48,903 bases of DNA, taken from contig JAILQK010000081.1 in the NCBI GenBank assembly GCA_024699045.1, forward strand, positions 1-48,903, in the 5' to 3' direction. The notes under the pieces were generated by a model. The model saw only the letters and a program-made list of their open reading frames with translations. It was not told the origin of the DNA and searched no databases. Each line of letters begins with the position of its first letter. Position 1 is the first letter of the stretch. Shown here piece by piece: positions 255 to 40,930 of this stretch. A program made the position numbers and the translations under genes. The stretch is from Lachnospiraceae bacterium (GTDB lineage Bacteria; Bacillota; Clostridia; Lachnospirales; Lachnospiraceae).

Positions 255-554
255 ATGAACATCACAAAAAACAAGGATGGCAGCACACTTACGATCGCTC
301 TCGAGGGAAGACTTGATACCACAACGGCTCCTCAGCTTGAGTCAGAGCTTAAGACCGCTCTTGACGGTATCACGGATCTGATCTTTGAGATAAAGGATCT
401 TGCGTATATTTCATCAGCCGGACTTCGCGTACTTCTTTCTGCGCAGAAGATCATGAATAAGCAGGGAAAGATGGTGATCCGCGGCGCAAGCGAAGAGATC
501 ATGGAGATTTTCGACGTTACGGGATTTGTTGATATCCTTACGATAGAGTCATAA
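255..554 (+). CDS. STAS-domain anti-sigma factor antagonist (RsbV/SpoIIAA-like)
   Basis: A 99-residue single STAS domain. Family members bind a sigma-inhibiting kinase and are switched off when it phosphorylates a conserved serine. The N-terminal strand, the EGRLDTTTAPQLE segment and the phosphorylation loop YISSAGLRVLL (Ser53/Ser54) are all present, as is the C-terminal helix after FDVTGF. Length is normal for the family. The start is supported by the strong site AGGAGG just upstream. It is followed after 10 bases by the likely partner kinase-like protein, and an RsbU-type phosphatase that could reactivate it lies at 6716-8374. Which target is released (a sigma factor or another protein) is not visible, because no sigma factor is encoded here. 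Confidence 0.9.
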   Translation: MNITKNKDGSTLTIALEGRLDTTTAPQLESELKTALDGITDLIFEIKDLAYISSAGLRVLLSAQKIMNKQGKMVIRGASEEIMEIFDVTGFVDILTIES

Positions 555-564
555 GGAGAAGCAG

Positions 565-1188
565 TTGACTACAGAAAAGATATATGTGAACAGTCGTGGC
601 GAAGGTCTTGACACGGCTTTTGATCTGGTTGACGGTTTTATCCAAAAAGTCGGACTTTCAGGTAAAAACGCTATTCATATACGTCTGCTTGCCGAAGAGA
701 TGCTCGGTATGGTGAAGGCCATTACCGGAAATTTCAATGCACTTTTCTGGGCTGAGGGCGATGATAAGGAATGTCAGCTGCATCTCAGTGCTGATGTCGA
801 CATGGATGCTGATAAAAGAAAAGAACTCATTGAGGCTTCTACATCCGGAAAGAATGAAGCGGCCAAGGGGATCATGGGCAGGATCCGTGAAGTCGTTGAG
901 GTCTGGATGGAAAACTATGAGGATATAGGCAAGATCCAGATGCAGTATGGCATCGATCCGATAAATTACAGCATGATGGGTGTCGATAATCAGACAATGA
1001 GTCAGGCAGTGCTTACATGGTCTTTGAAACAATATCGTGACGATGTTTCGGGAGCCGTAGATGTTGAAGAGCTCACCGAAGATGTCAGGGACGACCTTGA
1101 GAAATCGATCGTTGCCAATATCGCTGATGATGTCAAGGTAGGCATCATGAACGATAAATTGCAAATGACGATTTTCAAAAAGTTTTAG
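565..1188 (+). CDS. Degenerate RsbW-like anti-sigma/ATPase-fold protein
   Basis: A 207-residue protein starting at TTG (565), preceded by AAGGAG at a good distance. The segment HIRLLAEEMLGMVKAI near residue 40 sits where GHKL kinases carry the N box, and the C-terminal strand with KLQMTIFKKF resembles the end of RsbW-like domains. The N-box asparagine is absent and I see no clear DxGxG ATP-lid motif, so ATP binding or kinase activity is doubtful. It is longer than classic RsbW (about 150-160 residues). Its place directly behind the STAS gene is the main argument for an anti-sigma or switch-partner role. It may bind the STAS protein without phosphorylating it. Confidence 0.65.
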   Translation: MTTEKIYVNSRGEGLDTAFDLVDGFIQKVGLSGKNAIHIRLLAEEMLGMVKAITGNFNALFWAEGDDKECQLHLSADVDMDADKRKELIEASTSGKNEAAKGIMGRIREVVEVWMENYEDIGKIQMQYGIDPINYSMMGVDNQTMSQAVLTWSLKQYRDDVSGAVDVEELTEDVRDDLEKSIVANIADDVKVGIMNDKLQMTIFKKF

Positions 1189-1206
1189 ACACGGGTCCTT
1201 AAGCTA

Positions 1207-2250
1207 ATGATAGATAACGCTGACCAGCTTTTTGCCCGACTTGAAGAAAAAAACATCAGGCTGGATGCCGGTAAAAAGGAGACCATAGCCCGGGTAGACG
1301 AGAAATACCGACTTCGGATCTCGGATCACTACTTTGCTCTGATCGACTGGGACGATGAGGACTGTCCGATATATCGCCAGTGCATTCCGGACGGGAAAGA
1401 ACTGGAAAAACATAAGGGATACAGTGAAGATCCGTTAAACGAGGGTCAGTATGAAAAGGTGCCTTTTCTGATCCATAAGTATCATTCCCGTGCAGCCTTT
1501 ATGTGTTCAAATTTCTGTTATATGCACTGCAGACATTGCACTCGCAAAAATACTGTCATGAACAATTCCATAGCCGACAGGGATTCCTTGCCGCCGGCTC
1601 TGGATTATGTGAGGGAGCATACTGAGATCAATGATATACTGATCACGGGCGGAGATCCGCTGGCTCTTCCTTACGACCTCCTTGAATACTATATAGCCGG
1701 GTTTCGCAGTATTCCCACCGTCAATACCATAAGGATCGGTACGCGGGCGATAGTTACCGAGCCTTCAAGCATCACGGATGAGCTATGTGATATGCTTGAG
1801 AGATACCATCCTGTCTGGGTCTTCACCCAGTTTAATCATCCAAAGGAAGTTACGAAAGAAGCGGCGGAAGCATGTGACCGTCTGCTGAAGAGGGGGATCC
1901 CGCTTGGGAATCAGAGTGTTTTCCTGAAAGGGATAAACGATGATCCGGATACCCTTGAGAAACTGTATACCGATCTTATAGGGATAAGGGTCAGGCCTTA
2001 TTATCTGTATATCTGTGACAGGGTTGACGGCACGGCACATTTCTATGCCGATTATCATGTTGCAGTCGATGTCGTGGAGAAGCTTCGTTACAGGCTGCCG
2101 GGATATGCAGTGCCTAAACTGATCATAGACGCAGACGGTGATAACGGTGGCAAGGTTACGATAGAGAAAAATCACATGCTCCGCGAGACGGAAAAATATC
2201 TGGTGCTTCCGGGCAATACCGAAGATTCAACAACGAAATATTATATCTGA
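1207..2250 (+). CDS. Lysine 2,3-aminomutase-like radical SAM enzyme (KamA family)
   Basis: A 347-residue radical SAM enzyme with the iron-sulfur motif CYMHCRHC (Cys104, Cys108, Cys111) followed by TRK as in KamA proteins, and a glycine-rich ITGGDPLAL segment. The C-terminal part carries the PLP lysine in DADGDNGGK (Lys316). Two aspartates that bind the substrate epsilon-amino group in clostridial lysine 2,3-aminomutase (Asp293 and Asp330 there) have counterparts Asp271 (YICDRVDG) and Asp308, with the same 37-residue spacing. In glutamate 2,3-aminomutases these are Lys and Asn, so lysine to beta-lysine is the likelier reaction. It is shorter than KamA (about 416 residues). The start lacks an obvious ribosome binding site. 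It is followed by an ATP-grasp ligase, which suggests use of the product in a conjugate rather than catabolism. Confidence 0.85.
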   Translation: MIDNADQLFARLEEKNIRLDAGKKETIARVDEKYRLRISDHYFALIDWDDEDCPIYRQCIPDGKELEKHKGYSEDPLNEGQYEKVPFLIHKYHSRAAFMCSNFCYMHCRHCTRKNTVMNNSIADRDSLPPALDYVREHTEINDILITGGDPLALPYDLLEYYIAGFRSIPTVNTIRIGTRAIVTEPSSITDELCDMLERYHPVWVFTQFNHPKEVTKEAAEACDRLLKRGIPLGNQSVFLKGINDDPDTLEKLYTDLIGIRVRPYYLYICDRVDGTAHFYADYHVAVDVVEKLRYRLPGYAVPKLIIDADGDNGGKVTIEKNHMLRETEKYLVLPGNTEDSTTKYYI

Positions 2251-2266
2251 ACAGGAGAAAACTAAA

Positions 2267-3271
2267 TTGACTGTAGGTCTTACTTATGATCTGAGGGAAG
2301 ACTACGGGATCGCAAAGGACAGTATGATCTTTGCCGATTTCTGCCATCCCGAGGAGATCGGATACATGGAGGCTGCTATCAGGCGCAACGGATACGGCGC
2401 TGCCATGATCGGAAACATGTACAAGCTGAATGAAAGGATCCGGAACAATACTCTGGACTGCGATATAGTACTCGTATGTGACGAGGGAATCTCGTCCAGA
2501 AACAGGGAAGCGATCGTTCCTGCGCTCTTAGAGCTCAACAGGATCCCCTATGTGGGAAGCGATGCATACTGTATGGGGCTTTCACAGAATAAGTATCACA
2601 CCAAGCTTGTAGCCGGAGCCCTTGGGATCACCTGCCCCGACGGGATATATCTGGATTACAGGAATGATAACGTCATGGATGAGGACGGGATCATGCGGAT
2701 GCTTTCGGAAAAAGGACTTGATTTTCCGCTCCTTGTAAAGCCCAATGAGGAAGGCTACAGCATGGGAGTATTTCTGGTAAAGGACAAAGAAGAGCTCTTA
2801 AAGGCAGTGAAAAGCGATTTTGACAATTACCATGAACCGGTGCTGGTAGAGGAATATATCGACGGAAAGGAAGTCTATGTTCCGATCGTGGGAACGGGAG
2901 ACGAGGCCTATACGCTCCCGGTAGGCAGGGTTGTCGCAGAAGACGGTTCTGATGTGGCGATCTACTGTGTCGAGGATAAATGCTATGACTGGTCTCATTA
3001 TGAGGCATGTGAACTTCCGGAGGAGACAGCCGGCAGGATGAAGGCGGAGTCATTGAAGCTCTATCGGCATATGGGATGCCGTGATTTCGGACGATGTGAC
3101 TACAGGCTTAAGAAGGATGGAACTCCGGTGATGATAGAGATCACACCGCGTCCCGGACTGACCGAAGAGGGGCCTTTTGAAAGCAGTGCCAAAGCGGCAG
3201 GAATGACTTATGACGGTCTTTTGAAAGAGATAATAAACAGCGCTGCAAAACGATATGGATTGACAGACTGA
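2267..3271 (+). CDS. ATP-grasp ligase related to D-alanine--D-alanine ligase
   Basis: A 334-residue ATP-grasp enzyme starting at TTG (2267) behind AGGAG. The middle matches D-Ala ligases: IPYVGSDAYCMGLSQNKYHT, then ATP-binding strands FPLLVKPNEEG and EPVLVEEYIDGKEV. The C-terminal metal-binding block is present as RCDYRL and MIEITPRPGLTEEGPF. The HGxxGEDG signature of true Ddl is replaced by CDEGISSRNREAI, and the usual ENT of the metal loop is EIT, so cell-wall D-Ala-D-Ala synthesis is unlikely. The fold joins a carboxylate to an amine with ATP cleavage. Its substrate may be the beta-amino acid made by the preceding enzyme, but that is inference from gene order. Confidence 0.75.
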   Translation: MTVGLTYDLREDYGIAKDSMIFADFCHPEEIGYMEAAIRRNGYGAAMIGNMYKLNERIRNNTLDCDIVLVCDEGISSRNREAIVPALLELNRIPYVGSDAYCMGLSQNKYHTKLVAGALGITCPDGIYLDYRNDNVMDEDGIMRMLSEKGLDFPLLVKPNEEGYSMGVFLVKDKEELLKAVKSDFDNYHEPVLVEEYIDGKEVYVPIVGTGDEAYTLPVGRVVAEDGSDVAIYCVEDKCYDWSHYEACELPEETAGRMKAESLKLYRHMGCRDFGRCDYRLKKDGTPVMIEITPRPGLTEEGPFESSAKAAGMTYDGLLKEIINSAAKRYGLTD

Positions 3272-3272
3272 C

Positions 3273-6200
3273 ATGGATAAAAAAAAGAGTAGGGTATTTC
3301 AGCTTGTCATATGTGTTTTTATATGCGGGATCATAGCCCTTGCCGCGATACTCAACGCGTATTCTTTTATGTACAGCAGCGTGGAGGCTGTCGGCGAAAA
3401 TAAGGCGGTGATCCTTTCCCAGCTCAAAGGGACGCTTGAGTACGGACTGAAATACGGCAAGGAGCTAGATAATTATTACGATATCGAGGATATCTTCGAA
3501 AAGATACAGAAGTATTGCGAATCGGAACAGTCCTACATAGTCGATAACGATCTTAAGCTTCTGTACGGAGAAGGCCAGCCGGATGATCTGTCCGAAAAGA
3601 TCGCGCAAATGGAGACCGAGAAGAGCCAGCAGATCCTCTGGGTCGACGGTAATACCCAGCATATCCTTCAGTCGATCAACGGTGCTTATGAAAGAGCGGG
3701 CTATATAGGGATCACCTGCAGCACCGAAAAGATGAAAGCGTTTTCACACCGGTATGTACGCCGTATTTATATGTTTGCGCTTGCGGAAGCGCTGATAGGG
3801 ATACTGCTCTTTCTGGTGCTCTTCAGACTGCTGCCCCACCGGTTTAAGGAGAGAAGACTTAAATTCCTCATCATGGCAGCGATCATCGTTACAAATGTGA
3901 TCTCGATCCTCCCGTCATATTTCGTGCTGAAAGCAGGTTACGAAGCTTTGTCATCCGATGTGGCTCAGAGCATCCTGGCTCAGAATTCGGATGATATCAA
4001 CAGGATAATCTCCGAAGGCGTGAACTACAGTGATATCAAGGATTCGGAGGTCTACTATAAGGGAATTGCCGATCTGAGTGAACAGATCGATTCCGTATCG
4101 CTGTCGGAGACCGAAGGAGCAGGCGATATCTCGATAGAGCTTGCCGAAGATGAGAACGGAGAGAAGAGATATCTCAATGCGGTCATTTCGACTCTGTATT
4201 ACAACAGGAAACTAACGGTCGCCGTATTAAACACTCTTGTCACCACGATCACGGCCATAATGATCTCGATCGAGATCCTGTCATTCCTTTTGGGACTTCT
4301 GGTCGATGAGGACCGGGAGAGGAGAAAACTCAGGGACAACAGTGAACGGAAGACCATTGAGAATCCGGGCCTTGTGCGGGGACTTTCGTTTTTCTTTTCC
4401 GCCTTCAGATATATGGCGGTCGCTTTCATGTCCATAGTACTGGCGGAGATCTATCAGCCCATCTATGTTTTCGGTAAAGAGATCCCTTATGAGATACTTA
4501 TGAGTCTGCCCCTTTCGGGTCAGGTCTTCATTTCGATGATCACTTCATATATCTCGGGGATCGTGATCCATAAGTTCGGCTGGAAGAAGACTTCGCTTGC
4601 GGGGATCCTGATCATGATCTTAGGAACCCTTGCCTCGGCTTTTGCAAAAAGTCCTGTCCCTTTTATCCTGGCCCAGATGCTCGTAGGAACGGGGCTTGGA
4701 TTTGCCAAGATGGGGATCGATATCTATGCGGTCGCGGTATCGTCCGATGAGGATATGCCGGAATATACCGCCGGAGCCAATGCCGGGATAATAGTAGGCT
4801 TCTCTTCCTCGGCAGCCCTCGGAGCACTCATAGCCAATATATTCGGATATTCGGGCGCTTATATCGTGATGAGCGTGCTTGGGGTAGGAGTCCTGATGCT
4901 TGTCATGTCGTTTGGGATGAATGTAGCGCCTCAGGAGGAGAGACCCGAGGAGACGGAATCGGATCCGAGTGGCGAGAATTCCAGACCGGATCTGAGATTT
5001 CCTGCGTATATCCTTTTTATCATCATCCCTTATTTCTTTATAATGATGTTTGTGGATTATTTCTTCCCTGTTTATGCCAACAGTGAGGGTATAACAACCG
5101 ATGCGATCGGTTATGTTATGCTCATATACGGGATAGTGACGGCATATATCGGCACGCCTCTTTGTCCGAAGCTTACAAAGAAGATGGACTCGGCCGTGCT
5201 TATGCCGGTGATCCTGCTCATACTCGCGGGAAGCCTGTTTGCTTTTTCGATACGTAATTTTGTGGTCGTCGCCGCAGTGATAGTGGCGCTCATCGGGATA
5301 GCGGACGGGATAATGCCGAGTATCCAGTTCATGTATGTTTATGACCTCCCCTTCTCAAAGCGTATAGGTTTCTCCAAGGCTCTCGGGATCGAAGGGTTTT
5401 TCAGCAGCATGATCGGCGCGGCTGCTCCGGTGATCTTCGGTGTAGTCATGATGTATGGTAACGGCGGCCTTGCTCTTATCGCGATCCTCATCGCAATCTG
5501 CGCGGTCGTATTCATGCTTATGAACGGGATCATCGGAAAGAAGGGCGGAAATAACGGCGGAAAGAAACCCCTGGCGATGATGCTTTGCGTTGTGATGGCC
5601 GGTTCGCTGATCTTTAATACCGTTGAAGGACGTTGTGCTACCGGAGGAGACAGAGGAAAGCTTAAGATCGGATATTGTCAGGCCGGAGATTATTATGAGT
5701 TTGATTATCAGCTCTATCAGATCGGAATGGGGCTTCAGGAGCTCGGAGAGATCGCTCCGGGCACGCTTGACGGTTTTGAGCAGGGAGACAGCGCGGCTGA
5801 TGTATGGGCGGCGCTTTGTGAGAGTGAGAGCGAACACTATGAGTTCACTCCCGAATGCTATATTGATACGGCTTCCTTAGAGTTCAGCACTATAAACAAG
5901 GTACTCGCGGGAGAAAAGCTCGGAGAGCTCATAAGTTCAAATGATATCGATCTTATGATAACCATGGGGACAAGCGCGGGGACCATGGTAAGGGATTGCA
6001 GTGATGTTCCCTATATGAATTTTATCGCCAGCGATCCGGTGAGTTCCGAGATCACGGGCGGGGTGACCTATTCGGGAGATCCCAGAAAATGGGCGCATGT
6101 CAGTACCGGAGTCGAGGAGAAGGCGCTGGATGTAATGGATGATATTTTTGATCCGGACAAGCTGGGGATAGTATACAGCGCGGAGGATCCGGAGGCCTAT

Positions 6201-6719
6201 ATCTACAGTGGAGCCGCAAGCCTTGATGAATATGCAAAGGCAAACCGGAAGAAGGTCGTTACCGAATTCGTTACGGATGAATTCGAGGATACCGAAGAGG
6301 CATACCAGAATTACAAAAAAGAGATGCTTGAGGCGCATGAGAAGCTTGCATCGGCAGGCATAGATCTTTATATCCTGACAACGTCCTATTTAAGACTCGA
6401 GGATTTTGATGAGGTTCTTCAGCCTTTCATGGAGCATGGGATACCGGTATTTTCCATCAACAGCACGGAGGACGTCAGATGCGGAGCACTGGCTGCGGTT
6501 GAGATGTTTGATTACAAGAATATAGGCAGGTTTGCCGCTGGCACGATGAGACAGTACAGGGAAGGGGCTTCCCTCGATGAGCTGAGTCAGGAATATCTGA
6601 CATCGCCGTTTTTGGTCCTTAACATCGACACCATAAGACGGACCGGAGTTAAAATGTCACTTGAGACTTTATTGTCCGCAAGCAAGATATACAAAAGGTA
6701 CGGGGGTGAAACGCAATGA
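3273..6719 (+). CDS. Fusion of extracellular sensor, MFS transporter and tethered ABC-type solute-binding domain
   Basis: A 1148-residue protein in one uninterrupted frame. In order: membrane helix (about 10-32), extracellular region (35-163), two helices (165-187, 197-216), a second extracellular region (217-315), a helix (316-341), a charged linker, then a 12-helix MFS-like domain (about 370-755), a hydrophobic segment (764-785) and a solute-binding domain (about 795-1140). The last resembles the ABC_sub_bind family: IGYCQAG, then DLMITMGTSAGTM, and near the end ALAAVEMFDYKNIGRFAA. Counting helices from an inside N terminus puts the binding domain outside. I infer a receptor-transporter whose ligand is presented by its own binding domain. 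It starts 2 bases after the ligase gene and overlaps the phosphatase gene by ATGA, which ties it to both. It is unlikely to be an assembly fusion, because the frame and codon use are uniform. Confidence 0.8.
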   Translation: MDKKKSRVFQLVICVFICGIIALAAILNAYSFMYSSVEAVGENKAVILSQLKGTLEYGLKYGKELDNYYDIEDIFEKIQKYCESEQSYIVDNDLKLLYGEGQPDDLSEKIAQMETEKSQQILWVDGNTQHILQSINGAYERAGYIGITCSTEKMKAFSHRYVRRIYMFALAEALIGILLFLVLFRLLPHRFKERRLKFLIMAAIIVTNVISILPSYFVLKAGYEALSSDVAQSILAQNSDDINRIISEGVNYSDIKDSEVYYKGIADLSEQIDSVSLSETEGAGDISIELAEDENGEKRYLNAVISTLYYNRKLTVAVLNTLVTTITAIMISIEILSFLLGLLVDEDRERRKLRDNSERKTIENPGLVRGLSFFFSAFRYMAVAFMSIVLAEIYQPIYVFGKEIPYEILMSLPLSGQVFISMITSYISGIVIHKFGWKKTSLAGILIMILGTLASAFAKSPVPFILAQMLVGTGLGFAKMGIDIYAVAVSSDEDMPEYTAGANAGIIVGFSSSAALGALIANIFGYSGAYIVMSVLGVGVLMLVMSFGMNVAPQEERPEETESDPSGENSRPDLRFPAYILFIIIPYFFIMMFVDYFFPVYANSEGITTDAIGYVMLIYGIVTAYIGTPLCPKLTKKMDSAVLMPVILLILAGSLFAFSIRNFVVVAAVIVALIGIADGIMPSIQFMYVYDLPFSKRIGFSKALGIEGFFSSMIGAAAPVIFGVVMMYGNGGLALIAILIAICAVVFMLMNGIIGKKGGNNGGKKPLAMMLCVVMAGSLIFNTVEGRCATGGDRGKLKIGYCQAGDYYEFDYQLYQIGMGLQELGEIAPGTLDGFEQGDSAADVWAALCESESEHYEFTPECYIDTASLEFSTINKVLAGEKLGELISSNDIDLMITMGTSAGTMVRDCSDVPYMNFIASDPVSSEITGGVTYSGDPRKWAHVSTGVEEKALDVMDDIFDPDKLGIVYSAEDPEAYIYSGAASLDEYAKANRKKVVTEFVTDEFEDTEEAYQNYKKEMLEAHEKLASAGIDLYILTTSYLRLEDFDEVLQPFMEHGIPVFSINSTEDVRCGALAAVEMFDYKNIGRFAAGTMRQYREGASLDELSQEYLTSPFLVLNIDTIRRTGVKMSLETLLSASKIYKRYGGETQ

Positions 6720-8374
6720 AAAAGACGATAGGAATAAGAGCGAAGGTCATTATCTGCACGGTGCTGGCCATGACGATCCTGACGGCCGTGATCTCGTGGA
6801 TAGGTTATTTCACGTTCAATAAAAATGTCCTGAAAAATTATGTGAAATACGCGGAACTCGTGATAGAATCCGCAAATACGGTTTTTGATACCTATGATAT
6901 GGGTGATATGATCAGGGACCGTTCCATGGGGGAGAAGTATGAGGAGGCCAGACTCGAACTCAACAAGATCAAAAACAATGCTGATATCATGTACCTGTAT
7001 TCGGTGTATTTTGAGGATATAAACGATCCGAATAGTATCTGCTACGCTATAAACGCAAAGAACGATGAGGAGCTTAATGTAGGACTTCCGGTCGAGGAGA
7101 TCTACAGCTACATGGCAGAACCGTGTGAGGAGGATGCTTTTGCCGACAGTACGCTAGAGCTTTTCCGGAAGTGTCTCCTCTCCGGCGATACGGATATCAA
7201 ATATGAGGAGAGCGAGACGAGCGAATATGGAAGGCTGATCACCTGTTACAGGGCGGTTTTTGACAGTGACGGAAATCCTGTGGGGATCATCGGGGCGGAT
7301 ATCGATATCAATCAGATCAATACGGATCTGAATGAATACCTGAGGATCGTAATGATAACCGCATTGTTCTTTACGCTGGTGATCATAGGGTTCTTTATCT
7401 TCCTTGTCGGCATGCTCATCACCCGTCCGGTGGAGAGCATGGCACACAGTACAGATCTGTTCTTAAAGATGATGGATGCCAGTACTCCACCGGAGGATCT
7501 GGCATACAAAAAGGTCATCGTAAAGGGCCATGACGAGATACATATGCTCGCCAAAAACATCGAAAGTCTGGTAGAAGGCGTTGTAAACTATATGCTGAAC
7601 CTCAAGAACGTCACTGCCGAGAAGGAAAGGATCGGGGCGGAACTTAATGTCGCGACCCAGATCCAGGCCGATATGCTCCCGAGGATATTCCCGGCTTTCC
7701 CCGGCAGAGAAGAGTTCGATATTTATGCCAGCATGACCCCTGCCAAGGAGGTCGGAGGAGATTTCTACGATCTGTTCCTTATCGATGAGGATCATATCGG
7801 ACTTGTAATGGCTGACGTCTCTGGTAAAGGGGTTCCGGCGGCGCTCTTCATGGTGATCGCAAAGACGCTTATCAAAAACAGGGCAATGCTCGGGGGATCC
7901 CCTTCCGAGGTGCTGGCTGATGCGAATGAGCAGCTTTGCGAAGGGAATGAAGCGGAGCTTTTTGTCACCGTTTGGATAGCTATCATAGAGATCTCCACAG
8001 GAAAGGGCGTTGCGGCAAATGCCGGTCACGAGAATCCGATACTGCGGAGGAAGGACGGTAAATATGAGATGGTGACGTACAGGCATTCTCCGGCGGTCGC
8101 TACCATAGAAGGACTGAATTTCAAACAGCATGAGTTTGAGATTTTCCCCGGAGATACGCTTTTTGTATATACGGACGGCGTCCCGGAGGCAACCAATGCC
8201 CATGACGAGCTCTATGGCACGGACCGTTTGCTCGATGTGCTCAACAGCGATCCGGATGCTGATACCAAGCAGCTTCTTATCAATGTAAAAGATTCCGTTG
8301 ACGGTTTTGTCGGTCTTGCCCCGCAGTTTGATGATATAACGATGCTGGCGTTCAGATATTTCGGACCGAAATAA
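6716..8374 (+). CDS. Sensor PP2C-type serine phosphatase (RsbU/SpoIIE family) with HAMP
   Basis: A 552-residue membrane protein: helix 1 (about 9-31), extracellular sensor domain (35-205, with Cache-like GIIGADIDI near its end), helix 2 (211-236), HAMP-like linker (238-295), coiled segment (about 298-325) and a SpoIIE phosphatase domain (335-550). Catalytic metal motifs are visible as GGDFYD, MADVSGKGVPAALFM, YTDGVPEA and DDITML. Family members dephosphorylate STAS antagonists, so the protein at 255-554 is the natural substrate. The ATG overlaps the previous stop (ATGA), with GGGGGTG upstream as ribosome binding site. The operon thus begins and ends with partner-switching parts. Confidence 0.9.
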   Translation: MKKTIGIRAKVIICTVLAMTILTAVISWIGYFTFNKNVLKNYVKYAELVIESANTVFDTYDMGDMIRDRSMGEKYEEARLELNKIKNNADIMYLYSVYFEDINDPNSICYAINAKNDEELNVGLPVEEIYSYMAEPCEEDAFADSTLELFRKCLLSGDTDIKYEESETSEYGRLITCYRAVFDSDGNPVGIIGADIDINQINTDLNEYLRIVMITALFFTLVIIGFFIFLVGMLITRPVESMAHSTDLFLKMMDASTPPEDLAYKKVIVKGHDEIHMLAKNIESLVEGVVNYMLNLKNVTAEKERIGAELNVATQIQADMLPRIFPAFPGREEFDIYASMTPAKEVGGDFYDLFLIDEDHIGLVMADVSGKGVPAALFMVIAKTLIKNRAMLGGSPSEVLADANEQLCEGNEAELFVTVWIAIIEISTGKGVAANAGHENPILRRKDGKYEMVTYRHSPAVATIEGLNFKQHEFEIFPGDTLFVYTDGVPEATNAHDELYGTDRLLDVLNSDPDADTKQLLINVKDSVDGFVGLAPQFDDITMLAFRYFGPK

Positions 8375-8411: not shown

Positions 8412-8465
8412 CAGCTTAAGTATGGTGTGTTCCATGGAGGGATTATCTCCAGAAAGGAGAGAGTT

Positions 8466-9458
8466 ATGGCTGACATTTCTATATCACCTGTACAAACGTC
8501 GATCAGTACCCCGAATTCTGCATTAAGAAATACAAATACAGATGCTCGTTCCGCGGGCGCAAAGGCAGCTGAGAAGCTCAAAGAGACATCGGATGCGCAA
8601 AAAGAGAGAGGCGCGGAGGTTAGACGGGAGCAGCTTGAGGATGTAATAGCCGTCTCAAAGGACGGAGATACCGTACAGGCTACCGATACAAGCAAAGAGA
8701 GACTTGCGGAGGATGCTTTCGGTCATATGGAGATCCGTCAGGATCAGCAGGCACAGCAGGATCAGCAGACCCAACAGGCTCAGGAGCTTCAGGCAGACCG
8801 GCAGGATATGCAGAGTATCCGTGACGGACAGGCGCAAACCGTTACCGGAGAAGTGACCGAGGAGGCGATCGAGGCGAGAACTCTTGCGGCAATAGAGGGA
8901 ACCGAGAGCCAGCAGGCCATGGAGGAGCGGACAAAGGAAACTCTTGAAAACGGTACAAAGACTGAGGAAGCCATAAGCGAGAGCACTCAGAGACAGCTGA
9001 ACGGCACAAGCCGGACCGAGCAGGCGATAGAGATCGGCAATCAGAGAGCTGATGAGGAAGAGGCCGAAGAAGAGTACAATAATAAGATAGAGACATATAA
9101 CGGGGTCTCCGATATGAGGCTTGAGCAGATGTATATCCAGGGCGAGATCTCAAAAACGGATTACGATAAGGAGATGGAGGCCAGAGAAGAGCGCAGGGAA
9201 GCCGAGAATGCCGATGATTCAAGGTTCAGCAACCAGATGACAGGGGCGGCGGTACTCGAAGAGCGCGGAGAGAGAGATCTTGAGCAGATCGAAACGGCAT
9301 TTTCTCCCGAAGCTAACGATACGATCGCAGGAGAGGACCGGATGGAGATCCTTGCGGCGCTTGATGCAAATACGCTTAATACACAGGCTGATGCCAATGT
9401 CGTTACCGATGCCACTGCCAGTGGTGAAGAAGCGGTAAGAAGAGTAGTTTTTTCGTAA
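8466..9458 (+). CDS. Q/E-rich, repeat-containing coiled protein of unknown function
   Basis: 330 residues, with the start at ATG 8466 chosen for the adjacent AAGGAGAGAG; an in-frame ATG at 8427 has no such site. There is no signal peptide or membrane helix. The N-terminal 30 residues are Ser/Thr/Asn-rich, then come charged helices, a glutamine run (about 90-120, QDQQAQQDQQTQQAQELQ) and three imperfect repeats of 17-18 residues of the form (E/Q)(E/Q)A(I/M)-E-x-T-(7 to 9 residues)-T between about 140 and 200. The composition suggests an elongated or disordered helical protein. It has its own promoter and terminator-like hairpin and is therefore a single-gene unit. I do not recognise a family. 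Confidence 0.75.
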   Translation: MADISISPVQTSISTPNSALRNTNTDARSAGAKAAEKLKETSDAQKERGAEVRREQLEDVIAVSKDGDTVQATDTSKERLAEDAFGHMEIRQDQQAQQDQQTQQAQELQADRQDMQSIRDGQAQTVTGEVTEEAIEARTLAAIEGTESQQAMEERTKETLENGTKTEEAISESTQRQLNGTSRTEQAIEIGNQRADEEEAEEEYNNKIETYNGVSDMRLEQMYIQGEISKTDYDKEMEAREERREAENADDSRFSNQMTGAAVLEERGERDLEQIETAFSPEANDTIAGEDRMEILAALDANTLNTQADANVVTDATASGEEAVRRVVFS

Positions 9459-9492
9459 GATAATCTATAAACAGTTATTATTATGACTCAAT

Positions 9493-9518
9493 GGGCGACA
9501 CATTTTGTGCCGCCCTTT
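9493..9518 (+). terminator. Terminator-like hairpin after the Q/E-rich gene
   Basis: GGGCGACACA (9493-9502) pairs with TGTGCCGCCC (9506-9515) with one A-C mismatch and a TTT loop, followed by only a short T run (TTTAAT). The weak U tract makes efficiency uncertain. Confidence 0.55.
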
Positions 9519-9586
9519 AATACAAATGGTTTATCAGCATGACTGCGTTACGGGGGTTCCGGGTTTGAACGAAAAGGAGGTCTGCT

Positions 9587-12130
9587 ATGAGTGAAGTTAT
9601 AAGACCGACCGGGAAGGAATTGAAAAAATATATCGTCGATAATCTTGACAGGGCTATCGAAGAAGGTTGGATAACGGCTTTTTATCAGCCCGTTGTAAGA
9701 ACCCTCACAAACGAGATCTGTGGTCTGGAAGCCCTTGCAAGATGGATAGACCCCGTGTACGGTATATTTCCGCCCTATGATTTTATAGGCGCACTTGAGG
9801 AAGCAAAGCTCATACACAAGCTCGATAGTCATATAATCCACATCATATGTGCGGATTATGCGGATTCACAGACCAGGGATATTTCTCCCGTGACTGTTTC
9901 GTTCAATCTGTCACGTTTGGATTTCAAGCTCATGGATGTCCATGAGATCATAGAAACGGAGATGAAAGCGTACAATGTTCCGAGAGAATCATTGCGCGTC
10001 GAGATCACCGAGAGCATGATGGATAATAATGAGGAATACATGCACGATGTCATTGACCGTTTCTGGGACAGGGGCCTTCGGGTATGGATGGATGATTTCG
10101 GGAGCGGTTATTCTTCTCTTAATGTCCTTAAGGATTATCGTTTCGATACTCTTAAGATCGACATGGTCTTTTTAAGGGATTTTAATGCCAAATCCATGGA
10201 GATCGTCAAATCCATAGTCGATATGTCAAAACGGATAGGAGTGCATACTCTTGCCGAGGGGGTGGAGACCCTGGAGCAGCTTGACTTTCTCAGGAGTATC
10301 GGCTGTGAGAAGGCTCAGGGATATTATATCGGAAAGCCTATGTCTTATGATGACGGACTCGTTTATCTTAAGTCAAAAGGTTATCAGATGGAGGCTCCGG
10401 AGAAGCGCAGGTACTACCATGATATCGGTAAGGTAAACATCCTGAGCGCAATGCCCATGCTGTCGGTCGATAAGGGAGGGGACAACAAGACGTATTCAGA
10501 GGAGCAGATCCCGCTCGCTTTTGTCGAGTACTCCGGCGATAAACTGAGATACCTTTTTGCGAATCACAGCTATATTGAGACCATCAACAGACTTGGATCG
10601 GATTCACTTGAGGCTATCGAGGATGAGTTTAATAAAGGTGAATCTCCTTTAAGGGATAAATTCCTTTCCATGCTTATAAGGGCCAAGGAGACCAATGAGG
10701 TAGTCGGGGTCGATTTTATCAGGGAAAGCCGATACTGCTACGCGCAGGTCAGGGCTGTAGCGGGGTATCCGGGGGGCAACGCCTATCTTTGTCTTCTTAC
10801 CGACGTATCGGATGAAACGCTCGTATCAAGAGGGATAACCCTTGACAGACATATGAGGAGTCTTTGCTCGATCTATGAAATGATCACGCTTGTGGATCTG
10901 AATACCGGTTATTCCAAGACGATCTTCAGCACCTTTACGACAAAGCATGATTACAATCTGCGTCCCGCGGCAGAGGAGCTTAAAGATTATTCCGAGAATC
11001 AGATTTATCCCGACGATGCGGAAAGATTTGTGAGATTTACGGATCTCACTACTATAGAACAGAGGATACAGGATAGTCCTACGAGGCATATTTCGGCGCC
11101 TTTCAGGACTTTGACCGGCGACGGTAAATATATCTGGGCTTTATATTCCTATCTTTTTGACGGGGAAAAGAGCGACAGAAAGATCTTTTGCTGTTTCCGA
11201 AGGCTGGCGCCCGAAGCGGTTGCCCGTATCAGCGTTGAGGCGGCAGAGACAGGACTGTCTGATGAGATCAAGGCCGAGGAGATCGGGCTCACTCCGGACA
11301 TCCTTTGGAAAAATTTCTGCAACAACTCAAATGTGGGATTTTTCTGGAAGGACAACAAGCGCAGGTTTGTGGGTGTGAACAGAAAGTTCATGGAATACTA
11401 TGACCTGACTTCAGAGGAGCAGATCATCGGCAAAACCGATGAAGACATGGGTTGGCATGTCGATCCCGAGCCTTTCAAGAATGATGAGGAAAGTGTATTA
11501 CGGGGTGAGGGGCAGACGTATATGGTGCCCGGGACCTGTATATGCAAGGGAGAGATAAGAAATATCCTTGCAAGTAAGATGCCTTTGTATGTTGACGGCA
11601 AGATTGCGGGACTCGTAGGTTTCTTCCTGGATGTCACGGATCAGAAGAGCAGGGATACGGATATTAAATACCTTATGCAGACCGATGAGATGACGGGGAC
11701 CATGAATTTCCTCGGCATGATGGAAGCGCTTTTAAGATATCAGGATGCGTATGCCATGTATCAGTCTGATTTTGCAATGATATTTATCAATATTTCCCAT
11801 TTCAAGCTGTTTGCGGAAAACTACGGTCACGAATGGTGCCGGCATCTCCTAAAGAACGTTGCGGCAAAGCTGCAAAAGATCATCGGAGTCGAGGGCATAG
11901 CGGGCAGATTATTCACCGATAATTTCATGGTCGTGCGTCAGTTTGAAAAGAGCTCGGAGATAACCGGACTGATCGATGAGATCCAAAGGGAGATCGAGGG
12001 CACGCAGTTTATTGAAGGGGTTTCATGTTCTGTTTGTATCTATACCGGCTGTTCATTCTTTTCGGAAACAAGGGATCTGCAGGTTATGTATGAGGAGACC
12101 GTCAAACGCCTTAGAGAAAATAACCGATAG
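9587..12130 (+). CDS. EAL cyclic-di-GMP phosphodiesterase with PAS and degenerate GGDEF domains
   Basis: 847 residues. An EAL domain lies at the N terminus (about 15-265) with the catalytic set intact: GLEALARW, NLSRLDF, EITES, DDFGSGYSSL, LKID, AEGVETLEQ and QGYYIGKP. A middle region (about 290-550) has PAS-like pieces, a clearer PAS domain follows (about 565-685, FFWKDNKRRFVGVN to GLVGFFLDVTDQK), and a GGDEF-fold domain ends the protein (690-845). Its signature is RLFTDNF near residue 777 instead of GGDEF, so cyclase activity is not expected and a binding role is possible. No membrane segment is seen. AAAGGAGG precedes the ATG. The Dlt-like operon starts 20 bases downstream, so c-di-GMP turnover and polymer modification may be co-transcribed. 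Confidence 0.88.
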   Translation: MSEVIRPTGKELKKYIVDNLDRAIEEGWITAFYQPVVRTLTNEICGLEALARWIDPVYGIFPPYDFIGALEEAKLIHKLDSHIIHIICADYADSQTRDISPVTVSFNLSRLDFKLMDVHEIIETEMKAYNVPRESLRVEITESMMDNNEEYMHDVIDRFWDRGLRVWMDDFGSGYSSLNVLKDYRFDTLKIDMVFLRDFNAKSMEIVKSIVDMSKRIGVHTLAEGVETLEQLDFLRSIGCEKAQGYYIGKPMSYDDGLVYLKSKGYQMEAPEKRRYYHDIGKVNILSAMPMLSVDKGGDNKTYSEEQIPLAFVEYSGDKLRYLFANHSYIETINRLGSDSLEAIEDEFNKGESPLRDKFLSMLIRAKETNEVVGVDFIRESRYCYAQVRAVAGYPGGNAYLCLLTDVSDETLVSRGITLDRHMRSLCSIYEMITLVDLNTGYSKTIFSTFTTKHDYNLRPAAEELKDYSENQIYPDDAERFVRFTDLTTIEQRIQDSPTRHISAPFRTLTGDGKYIWALYSYLFDGEKSDRKIFCCFRRLAPEAVARISVEAAETGLSDEIKAEEIGLTPDILWKNFCNNSNVGFFWKDNKRRFVGVNRKFMEYYDLTSEEQIIGKTDEDMGWHVDPEPFKNDEESVLRGEGQTYMVPGTCICKGEIRNILASKMPLYVDGKIAGLVGFFLDVTDQKSRDTDIKYLMQTDEMTGTMNFLGMMEALLRYQDAYAMYQSDFAMIFINISHFKLFAENYGHEWCRHLLKNVAAKLQKIIGVEGIAGRLFTDNFMVVRQFEKSSEITGLIDEIQREIEGTQFIEGVSCSVCIYTGCSFFSETRDLQVMYEETVKRLRENNR

Positions 12131-12150: not shown

Positions 12151-13086
12151 ATGAGATCCCGACGTGTAGTGTGGTTTTTTATCATATTCATATTGCTTCT
12201 TTTTATTACTTCCGGTCTGGTAAGCCCATATGGGGGAGAAGTATATGATATCAAAAGCACAAACCAGAGGATCGAGGATATAAGGGTTGAAAAGGACAAT
12301 ACAATAGATGTCCTTTTTGCCGGAAACAGTCTTGTCTTCAGAGATCTTTCGCCCCTTCAGATGTGGGGACTTGAAGGCATCACTTCCTATGACCTCAGTG
12401 ACGGAGCCATGAGGCTTTGCGATCAGTATACCCTTATCCAGAATGCCTGCATTACCCAAAAGCCCGAGCTTATCGTGCTTGAGACCTGTGTTTTCTTTAC
12501 GGACGCTTCTCCGTATAAAGATGATTTTGCCCTTCCGACCAATCTTATCGAGAAGATATTTCCGATCTTTCATTATCATACTTTTTATAAGGGACTTAGC
12601 GTGTCGGATCCGGATATCGATGCCAGAAGGCTTTTGAAGGGCTTCGATCCTTCCTTTGATACCAAACCGTATACCGGGGATCCCGACTATATGGCAGACC
12701 GGGGAGAGGTCACCGATATTCCCGAGCTTAACCGCAGATATCTGGAAGATATCATGGCGTTTTGCAAAGAAAACGATATAAAGGTCATGCTCATCGCTCT
12801 GCCGAGTCCGGTGAACTACGATATGTCAAAGCATAATTCGATAGCGGGATGGGCAAAGGAAAGAGATATAGAATTTGTGGATCTCAATCTTCTTACCGAT
12901 GAGCTGGGCATTGACTGGAATACCGATACAAAGGATGAGGGGGATCATTTGAACTTTGAAGGCTCAAAAAAGGTTTCGTCATATATTGCGGAGCATATCA
13001 CAAAAGGATACGGCCTTTCGGATCACAGGGGCGACCCGGAGTATGCGCAGTGGGAAGAGTCTTATGAAGAGGCGGGATTGTACTGA
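12151..13086 (+). CDS. Membrane-anchored SGNH-type protein, DltD-like partner of the MBOAT
   Basis: 311 residues. An N-terminal membrane helix (about 7-25) is followed by an extracytoplasmic domain with FAGNSLVF (the block I serine nucleophile, GNS) and near the end DEGDHLNFEGSKKV, matching the catalytic Asp-x-x-His of SGNH hydrolases. DltD and AlgJ/AlgX proteins use this fold to pass acyl groups to polymers outside the cell. Its stop overlaps the MBOAT start (TGATG), which strongly suggests joint function. The ribosome binding site is AGGAG about 14 bases before the ATG. Identity with DltD itself is not claimed; only the fold type and position agree. Confidence 0.75.
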   Translation: MRSRRVVWFFIIFILLLFITSGLVSPYGGEVYDIKSTNQRIEDIRVEKDNTIDVLFAGNSLVFRDLSPLQMWGLEGITSYDLSDGAMRLCDQYTLIQNACITQKPELIVLETCVFFTDASPYKDDFALPTNLIEKIFPIFHYHTFYKGLSVSDPDIDARRLLKGFDPSFDTKPYTGDPDYMADRGEVTDIPELNRRYLEDIMAFCKENDIKVMLIALPSPVNYDMSKHNSIAGWAKERDIEFVDLNLLTDELGIDWNTDTKDEGDHLNFEGSKKVSSYIAEHITKGYGLSDHRGDPEYAQWEESYEEAGLY

Positions 13087-14678
13087 TGGATCTTAAATAT
13101 TTCACTGAATGCATACTGGAATGGTGGGGGCAGCTTTCATATACCGTATGGATGTATTTTGCCCTGCTTCTGCCGTTGACGGCCCTTATCTATCAGGCTG
13201 CGGGGAAGAAGAACAGAAGATATGTCCTGCTTGCTGCAAGCTGGTTTTTCTTTTTCAGCTTAAGCGGGATACTCCTTATCGCCAATATCTTAACCTCAGC
13301 TTTTGTCTGGGTGGTGGGCAATAAACTGGAGTCCGTTAATGCCGACAAGAGTATCAAGCGCAAGGCGAGAAAGAAGAAAAAGAAGCAGATCCTTGTCATA
13401 TCGGTGGTCCTTCTTCTTCTCGTCCTGGTGATCTTTAAGTATCTGGATTTCCTTGGACTGAATATCGTACGGATCACGCAGATCGCAGGCATTCCCTTCG
13501 ACTGGAAGGTACTGGGACTGGCGGTTCCGGTGGGGATCTCTTATTATACGCTCGAAGCGATCGCATATCTTTCCGACGTATACTGGGAAAAGACGGAGGC
13601 AGAGAAGAGTTTTCTGAACGTGGCGCTTTTCATGTCGTTCTTTCCCAAGCTGATAGAGGGACCTATCACACGGTACGGCGGAGTGCCTGAGCTTTTTGCG
13701 GGCGATGGGCTTGTCCTTGATAATGTCGCCTATGGGTATCAGAGGATCCTCTGGGGGCTTTTCAAAAAGCTGGTGATTGCCGATCAGCTGGCTCCGGCGG
13801 TAAATTCGCTGTATGACGGAGATTATATGGATGGCGGAGTCGCGCTTTTTGCGGCGCTGGCATTTACCATACAGGAATATATGGATTTCTCCGGAGCGAT
13901 AGATATCGTCATAGGGAGCGCGAGGATATTCAATGTTAAGCTTGCCGAGAATTTCAGACAGCCTTTCTTTGCAAAGAACGCTTCCGATTTCTGGCGCAGA
14001 TGGCATATAACGCTGGGAGCTTTTTTCAGGGATTATATTTTCTACCCGATCTCACTTTCAAAGAATACGGCAAAGCTTTCGGGAAAGGTGAAGAAGGTCT
14101 GCGGGGCATCGGTCGGACGATTCGTGACTCCGGCGATATCGCTGTTTTTTGTCTGGCTTTCAAACGGTCTGTGGCATGGTCCAAGGTGGACCTATGTGTT
14201 TTACGGGATGTATTATTTTGTCCTGATACTTATCGAGAACATCGTCGAGGAGCCGTTCCTCAAGCTTCTGGAACGCCTGAAGCTTAAGGAGACATCGGCT
14301 CCCGTCAGGGTGTTCCGGTATGTGAAGCTGCTGTTCATTGTCATGATCGGAGAGATGATATTCAGGGCGGAGTCTCTCAGCAAGGGATTTGACATGTTAA
14401 AATGCATCTTCACCGATCTCAGATTCGATGTGATGGCAGAGAACCTGGAGAATATCGGCATAGACCGGTATGGTTATATCCCTATCATCGGCGGACTCAT
14501 CGTTGTGATGATCGTTGAGACCTTAAAGGAGATCGGAGTCCCTTTAAGAGCAAAGCTTCAGGCCCTCCCGGTCCCGGTAAGATTCGGGTTCTGGTATGTA
14601 TGTATTTTTGTTGTTATAATATTCGGTGCGTATGGCACAGGTTATGATGTGGAGGATCTGATCTACGCGCAGTTTTAA
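13086..14678 (+). CDS. MBOAT-family membrane acyltransferase (DltB/AlgI-like)
   Basis: 530 residues with about ten or more membrane helices and a Lys/Arg-rich loop near residues 88-101. MBOAT motifs are clear: EGPITRYGGVPEL, then NFRQPFFAKNASDFWRRWH (His307) and SNGLWHGPRW (His364, the usual catalytic histidine). These enzymes move an acyl or aminoacyl group from a cytoplasmic donor across the membrane to an outside acceptor. Here the donor is probably the carrier protein encoded at 16223-16462, as in DltB-DltC. The gene overlaps the preceding SGNH gene by one base. A second, separate MBOAT is at 38139-39569. Confidence 0.9.
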   Translation: MDLKYFTECILEWWGQLSYTVWMYFALLLPLTALIYQAAGKKNRRYVLLAASWFFFFSLSGILLIANILTSAFVWVVGNKLESVNADKSIKRKARKKKKKQILVISVVLLLLVLVIFKYLDFLGLNIVRITQIAGIPFDWKVLGLAVPVGISYYTLEAIAYLSDVYWEKTEAEKSFLNVALFMSFFPKLIEGPITRYGGVPELFAGDGLVLDNVAYGYQRILWGLFKKLVIADQLAPAVNSLYDGDYMDGGVALFAALAFTIQEYMDFSGAIDIVIGSARIFNVKLAENFRQPFFAKNASDFWRRWHITLGAFFRDYIFYPISLSKNTAKLSGKVKKVCGASVGRFVTPAISLFFVWLSNGLWHGPRWTYVFYGMYYFVLILIENIVEEPFLKLLERLKLKETSAPVRVFRYVKLLFIVMIGEMIFRAESLSKGFDMLKCIFTDLRFDVMAENLENIGIDRYGYIPIIGGLIVVMIVETLKEIGVPLRAKLQALPVPVRFGFWYVCIFVVIIFGAYGTGYDVEDLIYAQF

Positions 14679-14699
14679 GGATTACGGTAAAAGGATCTG

Positions 14700-16205
14700 A
14701 TGGAAAAAAACGTACTGGCATGGCTTGAAAAGTCGGCAGAAAAAAATCCGGACCGGACGGTTTATGAGGATATAAGTGAAAGCATCACCTTCGGGGAGCT
14801 TCTGGATGAGGCGAAAAGGATAGGCTCCGCGATCTGTGAGGCGGGGCTTTCCGGGAAACCCATAGCGGTGATGATGGGAAGGAGCATTCATACGATCGCG
14901 GCATATCTGGGGATAGTTTATTCCGGTCATGCCTATGCTCCCATCGACAGCACTCAGCCGGTTTCAAGGATCGAGAAGATCCTCGGACTTTTGGAACCCG
15001 AGGCTGTGATCCGGGACAAAGGGACCGAGGGAAAGCCTGTGGAAGGGCTTCTTGGGAATGTGAAGAGCTTCGGTTTCGAAGAGATAAGAAGTCATGAAGT
15101 GGATAATGAGAGGCTTAAGGCGGCAGGAGCCTCACTCACGGAAACGTCGCCCCTTTATATCATTTTCACTTCGGGTTCGAGCGGAAGGCCCAAAGGAGTC
15201 ATCACTTCTCATCATTCACTTATGAACTATATCGAGGCTTATGCCGGAGTGATGAAGATCACGGAGGAGGACAGGCTTTGTTCCCAGTCTCCTCTTGATT
15301 ATATCGCGGCGATAAGGGATATTTATCTGCCGTTGCTCAGGGGGGCTTACAGCTTTATCTGTCCCAAGGAATATTTCATGCAGCCTGATCTCCTTAACGG
15401 TCTTTTGAATGATAAGCGGATAACCTGCGTAGGCTGGAGCACCTCGGCTTTATGTGTGCTGTCAAAGCTTCGGATGTTTAAGAGCGGCAGACCGGAGTTT
15501 CTGAGAAAGGTCTGCTTTTCGGGATCGGTAATGCCGGCAAAGGTTTTAAGGGAGTGGCAGACCGAGCTTCCCGGGACCGAATTTATTAATCAGTACGGAC
15601 CGACTGAGGTCACGGCTTCATGCACCTACCACCGGATCGATCATGTAGTCGGTGAGGGAGAGATCATACCGGTAGGGGTACCTTACGAGAATTATAAAGT
15701 GTTCCTTTTATCGGACAATGATGAGGCAGTGGAACAGGGAGGATACGGTGAGATCTGCGTGGCGGGATGTTCGCTTGCGCTGGGGTATTATAATGATGTG
15801 GAGCGGACAGGTTCCTCATTTGTACAGAATCCCTTAAACGGATCATATATGGAAACGATCTACAGGACCGGCGATATCGGGAGGTTCAGGGAGGATGGCT
15901 GCCTGGAATTCCACGGACGGCGTGACAGGCAGATCAAGCATATGGGACACAGGGTCGAGCTTGATGAGATAGAAGCCGCGGCGCTCGCATCGGCCGATAC
16001 GGCGGAAGCGGCAGCCGTCTATGACAAAGAAAAAGAGACGATATGGCTGTTTTATTCGGGAAATGCCGGGGTAAAGGAACTTATTGTCGGTATGAGGGGC
16101 TTTCTTCCCGGATTTATGGTCCCGAGAAAAGTTATTAAAATGGAAACGCTTCCCAGGCTTGCAAACGGCAAGACCGATCTTGAAAAGCTTAAGGAATCAT
16201 TTTAA
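14700..16205 (+). CDS. Amino-acid adenylating ligase (DltA-like, carrier-charging)
   Basis: 501 residues of the acyl-adenylate superfamily with the core motifs in order: YIIFTSGSSGRPKGV (phosphate loop), NQYGPTEVTAS, YRTGDIGRF, GRRDRQIKHMGHRVELDEIE and the C-terminal lysine region NGKTDLEKL. Length equals DltA. The A4 region reads SPLDYIAAIRDIY, keeping an Asp where amino-acid-activating enzymes hold the alpha-amino group. FSGSVMP replaces the FCGExLP seen in DltA, so the amino acid may not be D-alanine. It lies between the MBOAT and carrier genes, so charging that carrier is the expected role. Substrate is not readable from sequence alone. Confidence 0.87.
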   Translation: MEKNVLAWLEKSAEKNPDRTVYEDISESITFGELLDEAKRIGSAICEAGLSGKPIAVMMGRSIHTIAAYLGIVYSGHAYAPIDSTQPVSRIEKILGLLEPEAVIRDKGTEGKPVEGLLGNVKSFGFEEIRSHEVDNERLKAAGASLTETSPLYIIFTSGSSGRPKGVITSHHSLMNYIEAYAGVMKITEEDRLCSQSPLDYIAAIRDIYLPLLRGAYSFICPKEYFMQPDLLNGLLNDKRITCVGWSTSALCVLSKLRMFKSGRPEFLRKVCFSGSVMPAKVLREWQTELPGTEFINQYGPTEVTASCTYHRIDHVVGEGEIIPVGVPYENYKVFLLSDNDEAVEQGGYGEICVAGCSLALGYYNDVERTGSSFVQNPLNGSYMETIYRTGDIGRFREDGCLEFHGRRDRQIKHMGHRVELDEIEAAALASADTAEAAAVYDKEKETIWLFYSGNAGVKELIVGMRGFLPGFMVPRKVIKMETLPRLANGKTDLEKLKESF

Positions 16206-16222
16206 TTAAAAGGAGATACATT

Positions 16223-16462
16223 ATGAAAGAGAAGATACTGGAGATCCTTACTGATCTCAGACCGGATGTGGATTTTGAGAATGAGAAAGCGCTGATCACC
16301 GATAACGTGATCGAATCATTCGATATAATCGAGCTTATCTCGAGGCTCGGAAATGAGTTTGACGTCGAGATAAGTCCCAAGGAGCTCACCGCGGTGAATT
16401 TTGATTCGCTGGATGCGATCACGGCGCTCATCGCGCGGCTTGTCGAAGAAGAGGAAGACTGA
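16223..16462 (+). CDS. Acyl/aminoacyl carrier protein (DltC-like)
   Basis: 79 residues, acidic and helical. The phosphopantetheine attachment serine is in NVIESFDIIELI (Ser32), which resembles DltC/ACP sites. A good AAGGAG precedes the ATG. It sits directly after the adenylating ligase and immediately before a PLP decarboxylase, so it could carry the amino acid while it is loaded, decarboxylated and handed to the MBOAT. Confidence 0.88.
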   Translation: MKEKILEILTDLRPDVDFENEKALITDNVIESFDIIELISRLGNEFDVEISPKELTAVNFDSLDAITALIARLVEEEED

Positions 16463-16469
16463 CAGCATC

Positions 16470-39569: not shown

Positions 39570-39600
39570 GTGGGCGGAAACATAAACTCTTAAATACAGG

Positions 39601-39751
39601 GAAATGATCGATACAGGGAAATGAAGAACATAAGAAATAAAGGAAGCTTAATGATAGATGGAAATGATTGATACATGGAAATGAAGAACACAAGAAATAA
39701 AGGAAGCTTAATGATAGATGGAAATGAATGATACATGGAAATGAAGAACAC
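39601..39751 (+). repeat. 60-base tandem repeat, about 2.5 copies, duplicating the start region of the next gene
   Basis: Units begin at 39601, 39661 and 39721 with GAAATGA. Each includes GGAAATGAAGAACA, the start region of the SGNH gene. In the first two copies that start leads into a short frame (MKNIRNKGSLMIDG, then stop within a few codons); only the third copy opens the real gene. Confidence 0.88.
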
Positions 39752-40928: not shown

Positions 40929-40930
40929 AA

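Follow-up and report, generated by a model that had tools for sequence, protein, structure and literature searches.

A conserved aminomutase-ligase-receptor-phosphatase operon in Lachnospiraceae, with optional partner-switch genes at its edges

We analyzed a run of six genes at positions 255 to 8374 of a 48,903-nucleotide stretch of DNA from a Lachnospiraceae bacterium (contig JAILQK010000081.1 of assembly GCA_024699045.1), hereafter the window. The window is one whole contig, starting at base 1, and the view ends upstream of the first gene of the run; the genome (G000) comprises 2.63 Mb in 233 contigs, is 81% complete, and is congeneric with genome G079. The ORF list of the window places the six open reading frames (ORFs) on the same strand at 255-554, 565-1188, 1207-2250, 2267-3271, 3273-6719, and 6716-8374, and these coordinates, together with domain matches, bear out the six-gene run described in the initial annotation. 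In this order, they encode a STAS protein, a protein of 207 amino acids (aa), a KamA-type aminomutase, an ATP-grasp ligase, a receptor-transporter fusion, and a SpoIIE-type phosphatase. The joins along the run are 10, 18, 16, and 1 bases, and the last is a 4-base overlap; the initial annotation spoke of four joins from 1207 onward and listed three, the values of which are correct while the count is wrong. This spacing suggests that the genes are co-transcribed. Promoter-like sites in the run were near the shuffle level in our scan (16, versus 13.7 +/- 4.0 in shuffled sequences), and there were 3 terminator-like sites, versus 6.5 +/- 2.5; such a scan does not bear out the statement in the initial annotation that the run has no internal promoter. 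Inspection by eye found sequences resembling ribosome-binding sites ahead of the STAS, 207-aa, and ligase genes, and none before the KamA gene.

The last four genes form the conserved core of the locus, namely, the KamA-type radical SAM aminomutase, the ATP-grasp ligase, the Cache-MFS (major facilitator superfamily) transporter joined to a solute-binding protein (SBP), and the SpoIIE phosphatase. The core recurs in 12 genomes (the window and 11 further loci), all of whose hosts live in the rumen or gut and belong to a single family. The 11 loci, which include those of genomes G079 (L047) and G193 (L052), were collected in a scan of genome contigs using the ligase alignment and two narrow patterns, so that their number is at least 11. 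The core is uncut in 9 of the 12 loci, and contig ends truncate it in L045, L049, and L055. The KamA and ligase genes are adjacent in all 12 loci and the MFS gene comes next in 11, L055 being cut by the contig end. Eleven loci also have SpoIIE, which follows the MFS/SBP gene in 10 and lies ahead of KamA in L055; L045 is cut before SpoIIE. The MFS protein and the SBP are encoded by two separate genes in L048, L051, and L052. KamA orthologues (68-77% identity) are confined to genomes with the operon (3 of 378 family genomes, including that of the window), the next best match having 43% identity; MFS-SBP matches at E<=1e-40 come from the same three genomes, out of 397. Thus, the expectation that the enzymes, the receptor-transporter, and the phosphatase travel together holds for the core, and a more fitting description of the locus is a conserved aminomutase-ligase-receptor-phosphatase operon in which the STAS and kinase genes at the edges are optional. 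Two of the records that carry the core are named as strains, rather than metagenome-assembled genomes: Butyrivibrio AC2005 and Lachnospiraceae AC3007. A phage origin was rejected, as the 38 pattern matches in viral contigs included no relative of the ligase.

The first core enzyme (1207..2250, plus strand, 347 aa) is a KamA-type radical SAM, pyridoxal phosphate (PLP)-dependent 2,3-aminomutase, scoring 279.8 bits with TIGR00238 against a cut-off of 199.2, and it aligns with lysine 2,3-aminomutase 2a5h over residues 15-337 (E 1e-79). The three cysteines and the equivalents of Arg134, Asp293, Asp330, and Lys337 of 2a5h are kept in the window protein; we take Lys337 to be the PLP lysine, and Asp293 and Asp330 to bind the side-chain amine of lysine. 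The CxxxCxxCTR and IDA...GGK motifs are present in all 12 KamA proteins, and the Asp293 position is likewise conserved in 12 of 12 (11 by pattern, and L046 read separately). These residues make a basic amino acid the likely substrate, and the production of beta-lysine, as proposed in the initial annotation, plausible; however, the score with the AblA lysine 2,3-aminomutase equivalog TIGR03820 stays below its cut-off (326.5 versus 525.4 bits). The lysine, arginine, and glutamate aminomutase models score within 8 bits of one another on the window protein and so do not single out one substrate.

The second enzyme (2267..3271, plus strand, 334 aa, TTG start) is an ATP-grasp ligase that belongs to the D-Ala-D-Ala ligase superfamily (Dala_Dala_lig_C, 115.5 bits). 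It scores 148.7 bits with the D-Ala-D-Ala ligase model TIGR01205, below the cut-off of 245.65, and below the cut-offs of all 25 NCBIfam families among the matches listed; it is a superfamily member that forms a group of its own. More distant aminomutases (39-43% identity) were found at 16 loci; at 14 of these, the frame is longer (411-459 aa) and no ATP-grasp gene is a neighbor in the stretch covered, while G024 and G127 have one. The latter pair was set aside as another subfamily, with 39% KamA identity and no window-type SpoIIE in the stretch fetched; used as a query, the G024 ligase matched only itself among 392 genomes of the order at 1e-45, a sample evidently without G127. As a separate observation, relatives of the ligase in L038 (8706-13270, with KamA) and L037 (1146-6691) lie near genes that by eye resemble those of AgrC and LytTR regulators.

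The third core gene (3273..6719, plus strand) encodes, in one ORF, a receptor-transporter of 1148 aa with MFS_1 and ABC_sub_bind matches. Its structural model (pLDDT 76) has two ectodomains bounded by transmembrane (TM) segments, a 12-TM MFS part, and a class I SBP, in the order TM-Cache-like-TM (3-186), TM-small domain-TM (193-343), MFS (365-750), linker/TM, and SBP (797-1140). Foldseek searches related the MFS part to VMAT2, NorA, and MdfA, and the SBP part to CD0873 (6hnj/6hni), 3lft, and 3lkv.

The last gene (6716..8374, plus strand) encodes a membrane SpoIIE-type PP2C phosphatase of 552 aa (SpoIIE, 154.8 bits) with an N-terminal sensor region and a HAMP-like linker; it has weak matches to dCache (E 0.003) and HAMP (E 0.09). 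The motifs GGDFYD, DVSGKG, TDGV, and DDIT are intact in the window protein, and all four motif patterns were found in 6 of the 10 loci checked, the L049 protein being cut.

The two genes that precede the core belong to the partner-switch type. The STAS protein (255..554, plus strand, 99 aa) resembles anti-sigma-factor antagonists (Pfam STAS, 57.8 bits; TIGR00377, 71.9 bits versus a cut-off of 53.45), and the Ser of its SSAGL motif is presumably the phosphorylated residue. Based on tblastn and a six-frame re-scan, a STAS gene lies beside the core in 4 of the 12 loci (the window, L051, L052, and L054), and an intact RsbW gene in 3, where it is placed downstream of SpoIIE (L051 and L052) or between STAS and KamA (L054). 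The 207-aa gene adjoins the core in the window only (1 of 12). Overall, some STAS, RsbW, or 207-aa gene adjoins the core in 5 loci, that of L049 being a deleted RsbW. The closest STAS protein in G079 (71%) is encoded with an RsbW gene away from the core, and an RsbW-like gene is present elsewhere in the window's genome (L109).

The 207-aa protein (565..1188, plus strand, TTG start) was initially described as an ATPase-like partner. The model of its structure points to a SpoIIAB-like GHKL fold (pLDDT 69); the closest folds are UsfX/SpoIIAB, with Foldseek E values of 0.015-0.058 and none at E<=0.001. The ORF has no Pfam match at E<=1, the HATPase_c_2 profile included, and no sequence link of its family to solved structures was found at E<=10. 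In alignment A4, read by eye, the position of the N-box Asn of RsbW is Met. The similarity to RsbW/SpoIIAB kinases is thus one of fold, without the HATPase_c_2 match and the N-box Asn that mark them, and because this Asn is replaced, the protein may bind the STAS protein without acting as a kinase. Of 200 family genomes searched at E<=1e-4, 12 contain homologues, and the relatives in L102, L106, and L107 share with the window gene the position next to a STAS gene. It was also observed that the C-terminal part of an MscS-type channel (L035, 2862-4256, minus strand) matches the 207-aa family at 24.5%.

The absence of a sigma factor at the locus, pointed out earlier, extends to the genome scale: the SigB/F/G model TIGR02980 remained under its cut-off in 7 of 8 genomes (G000, which is 81% complete, G079, G193, G080, G041, G153, and G135), and exceeded it in G012 and, among 14 control genomes, in 1. 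A classic sigma factor of the SigB/F/G type is therefore an unlikely output of the switch.

Using a 990-aa homologue from G135 as the query, we found that the MFS protein belongs to a wider clan, with members in 26 of the 397 family genomes searched (E<=1e-12). Neighbors on the same strand near the MFS gene were counted in 24 loci of 23 genomes, with G000, G079, and G193 set aside. SpoIIE is a neighbor in 14 of the 24 loci; the genomes have 1-11 SpoIIE matches each (10 genomes), so that chance adjacency is about 1%, a rough estimate assuming about 3,000 genes. A 15th SpoIIE neighbor, suggested in L152 by a local hidden Markov model, was dropped, as a Pfam search at E<=5 returned HAMP there but not SpoIIE; in L148, SpoIIE is on the opposite strand. 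RsbW is a neighbor in 8 of the 24 loci (two scans with 7 each, combined), a gene of the 207-aa type in 2, and STAS in 1. An enzyme of the amide- or acyl-transfer type (ligase or transferase) lies beside the MFS gene in 14 of the 24, a raw count from neighbors that were picked by eye for the Pfam search. These enzymes are of the LPG_synthase_C type in eight loci (L152, L156, L159, L160, L162, L163, L164, and L165), GNAT in two (L104 and L169), GH3 in two (L148 and L149), a formyltransferase in one (L166), and a Ddl-like ATP-grasp enzyme in one (L147). Arrangements include MFS-ATP-grasp-SpoIIE-RsbW in G080 and SBP-MFS-GH3 in G076. No ligase or transferase was recognized beside the MFS gene in the other 10 loci (L150, L151, L153, L154, L155, L157, L158, L161, L167, and L168).

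Several other genes adjoin the clan MFS genes. In L150 (6101-8111), an RsbW-like gene immediately followed by one for an Ntox11-domain protein adjoins an SBP-MFS pair. The MFS gene in L153, L155, L157, L161, and L167 is adjoined by ORFs of 373-469 aa for which Pfam gave no convincing match, several of them with a similar N-terminus by eye. Genes resembling peptidase-type ABC exporters, also by eye, do so in L154, L158, and L162 (ABC domains were found in L154 and in the L134 copy of L162).

We tentatively read the four-gene core as a unit that makes, exports, and senses an amino-acid conjugate and feeds a partner switch, and consider this somewhat short of an even chance. Starting from the gene content, the conservation of the unit, the catalytic motifs, and the fold assignments established above, we infer the substrate, product, direction of transport, sensed ligand, and STAS target as follows. 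The substrate of KamA would be a basic amino acid, in all likelihood L-lysine, which the enzyme would convert to the beta form; the ATP-grasp enzyme would then form an amide bond between this beta-amino acid and either another amino acid or a small acid. The cationic product would be exported by the MFS half of the fusion, and the SBP and Cache-like ectodomains would read its level outside, setting the activity of SpoIIE together with the phosphatase's own ectodomain. SpoIIE, in turn, would dephosphorylate the STAS protein, and thereby change the RsbW-type partner. Between members of the clan, the ligase cassette may be exchanged. This reading, the most economical one, is favored by the recurrence of the core, the confinement of close KamA and MFS-SBP relatives to operon genomes, the conserved KamA residues, the switch genes adjoining five of the cores, the likeness of the MFS part to VMAT2, NorA, and MdfA, the profile matches of the SBP, and the SpoIIE and transfer-enzyme neighbors of the clan.

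Several observations weigh against this interpretation. In 7 of the 12 loci, no STAS, RsbW, or 207-aa gene adjoins the core in the DNA covered, and the RsbW gene of L049 has an internal deletion, an ORF (483-656) just before KamA keeping both ends with the middle gone; the partner-switch wrapping described initially, which the SpoIIE genes and the five loci with adjacent switch genes confirm as real, is therefore optional. The SpoIIE proteins of L053 and L054 each have three of the four motif patterns, and that of L048 has none, having lost its motifs (SGNFYD, TKG), which counts against universal phosphatase action. Pairwise distances of the four core proteins, which speak for a unit in that they correlate over 10 loci (r 0.71-0.91; <=3 of 5000 permutations), also reflect the phylogeny of the hosts. 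In G380, a genome of the same genus, no MFS-SBP protein was matched at E<=1e-40. It should also be noted that GNAT- and LPG-type genes are common, and that the ligand of the SBP may be a free aromatic amino acid, rather than the product.

The last point leads to an alternative that we regard as possible, if on the unlikely side, in which the MFS-SBP protein is a receptor for an outside ligand, such as an aromatic amino acid or a peptide, SpoIIE relays the signal, and the aminomutase and the ligase are effectors making a compatible solute or a surface modification. The SBP is closest to the aromatic-amino-acid binders CD0873 (profile search, E 3e-9) and VC_1101 (3lkv, E 1e-5); a PDB search with the single SBP sequence gave two poor matches only. 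According to PMC6816091, Tyr, Trp, and Phe are ligands of CD0873, SP1069 (3lft), and VC_1101, and specificity is tuned at positions Glu-263 and Tyr-279 of CD0873. By alignment and a 16-residue spacing, we place these positions at Asn267 and Tyr285 in alignment A7, neither of which varies among the 10 SBPs, so that Tyr is kept and Glu is replaced by Asn; judged from the sequence, this is a lead toward an aromatic or aromatic-bearing ligand. The 10 clan loci with no recognized ligase or transferase also fit a receptor of this kind. Conversely, the differing ligating and transfer enzymes in the other 14 would sooner suggest that receptor and ligand supply vary together.

If the core does make, export, and sense a conjugate, it may belong to a self-signaling family in Lachnospiraceae, a bolder proposal that we consider rather doubtful. 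A variable ligase or transferase cassette (KamA with ATP-grasp, ATP-grasp alone, GH3, GNAT/LPG-type, or formyltransferase) would make the signal, the Cache-MFS protein and the SBP would export and read it, and SpoIIE would act on a sigma-free partner switch, amounting to a form of quorum sensing that uses amino-acid conjugates as signals and the dephosphorylation of proteins as the relay.

An improbable explanation is efflux with feedback, in which an antibiotic-like or osmolyte product is exported and the switch merely tunes export and synthesis. The MFS part does resemble drug exporters, and beta-lysine occurs in peptide antibiotics; however, no tailoring or resistance genes were recognized in the operon, and two enzymes are few for an antibiotic. 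Import and breakdown of lysine or dipeptides is very improbable: an SBP_bac_3-type ABC transporter does follow SpoIIE by 3 bases in Butyrivibrio AC2005, but an ATP-grasp ligase builds bonds rather than breaking them, and the 14 distant aminomutases with longer frames have no such ligase beside them in the stretch covered.

Should the reading of a conjugate made, exported, and sensed be correct, it would provide an identifiable chemical input for partner switches in gut and rumen bacteria that lack sigma B, predict a class of beta-amino-acid conjugates, and account for the SpoIIE genes beside transporter-like proteins and small ligases in Lachnospiraceae. The presence of the core in strains AC2005 and AC3007 makes it testable in culture, if the strains are obtainable.

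Downstream of the operon (8427-12130), the window encodes a 343-aa protein without a Pfam match (8427-9458) and an EAL-PAS-GGDEF protein (9587-12130). The EAL/GGDEF gene was rejected as a part of the system, as relatives of both genes lie together elsewhere in G079 (L117, 1492-5101). Farther along, positions 12151-18741 encode a 311-aa protein without a Pfam match, an MBOAT protein, an AMP-binding ligase, a PLP enzyme of the Orn/Arg/DAP-decarboxylase type, and an M15 peptidase, possibly a surface-polymer acylation set. A second MBOAT gene, with genes for an AlgX-like SGNH protein and an FkbH_N-type protein, lies at 38139-42655.

No described system with this gene combination was recognized in our searches of open-access papers, in agreement with the initial annotation. 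The operon shares the SpoIIE-type phosphatase and the STAS protein with its Ser motif with the RsbU/SpoIIE-RsbV/SpoIIAA-RsbW/SpoIIAB switches of sigma B and sigma F, and RsbW-type kinase genes occur in the same genomes, with 3 of the 12 loci having one next to the core; it differs in that the phosphatase is coupled with two enzymes of biosynthesis and a transporter-receptor, and in the SigB/F/G scores. SiaABCD of Pseudomonas aeruginosa likewise has a membrane SpoIIE phosphatase as its input, SiaA being the best NCBIfam match of the window phosphatase, and its output, according to PMC8457831, is a diguanylate cyclase. The window phosphatase scores below the SiaA cut-off (49.8 versus 700), and neither the STAS nor the 207-aa protein matches the SiaC or SiaB families in Pfam or NCBIfam, with no neighboring siaBCD; the closest G079 relative of the c-di-GMP gene downstream of the operon is located away from the core (L117). 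In MFS receptors of the UhpC type, a transporter-like protein is proposed as the sensor; the fusion described here differs in its ectodomains and fused SBP, and in the phosphatase that takes the place of a histidine kinase. Finally, the AblA/AblB pathway makes a beta-lysine osmolyte with a KamA-type aminomutase and an acetyltransferase; the aminomutase is common to both, whereas here an ATP-grasp ligase stands in the place of the acetyltransferase and is accompanied by an exporter-like MFS protein.

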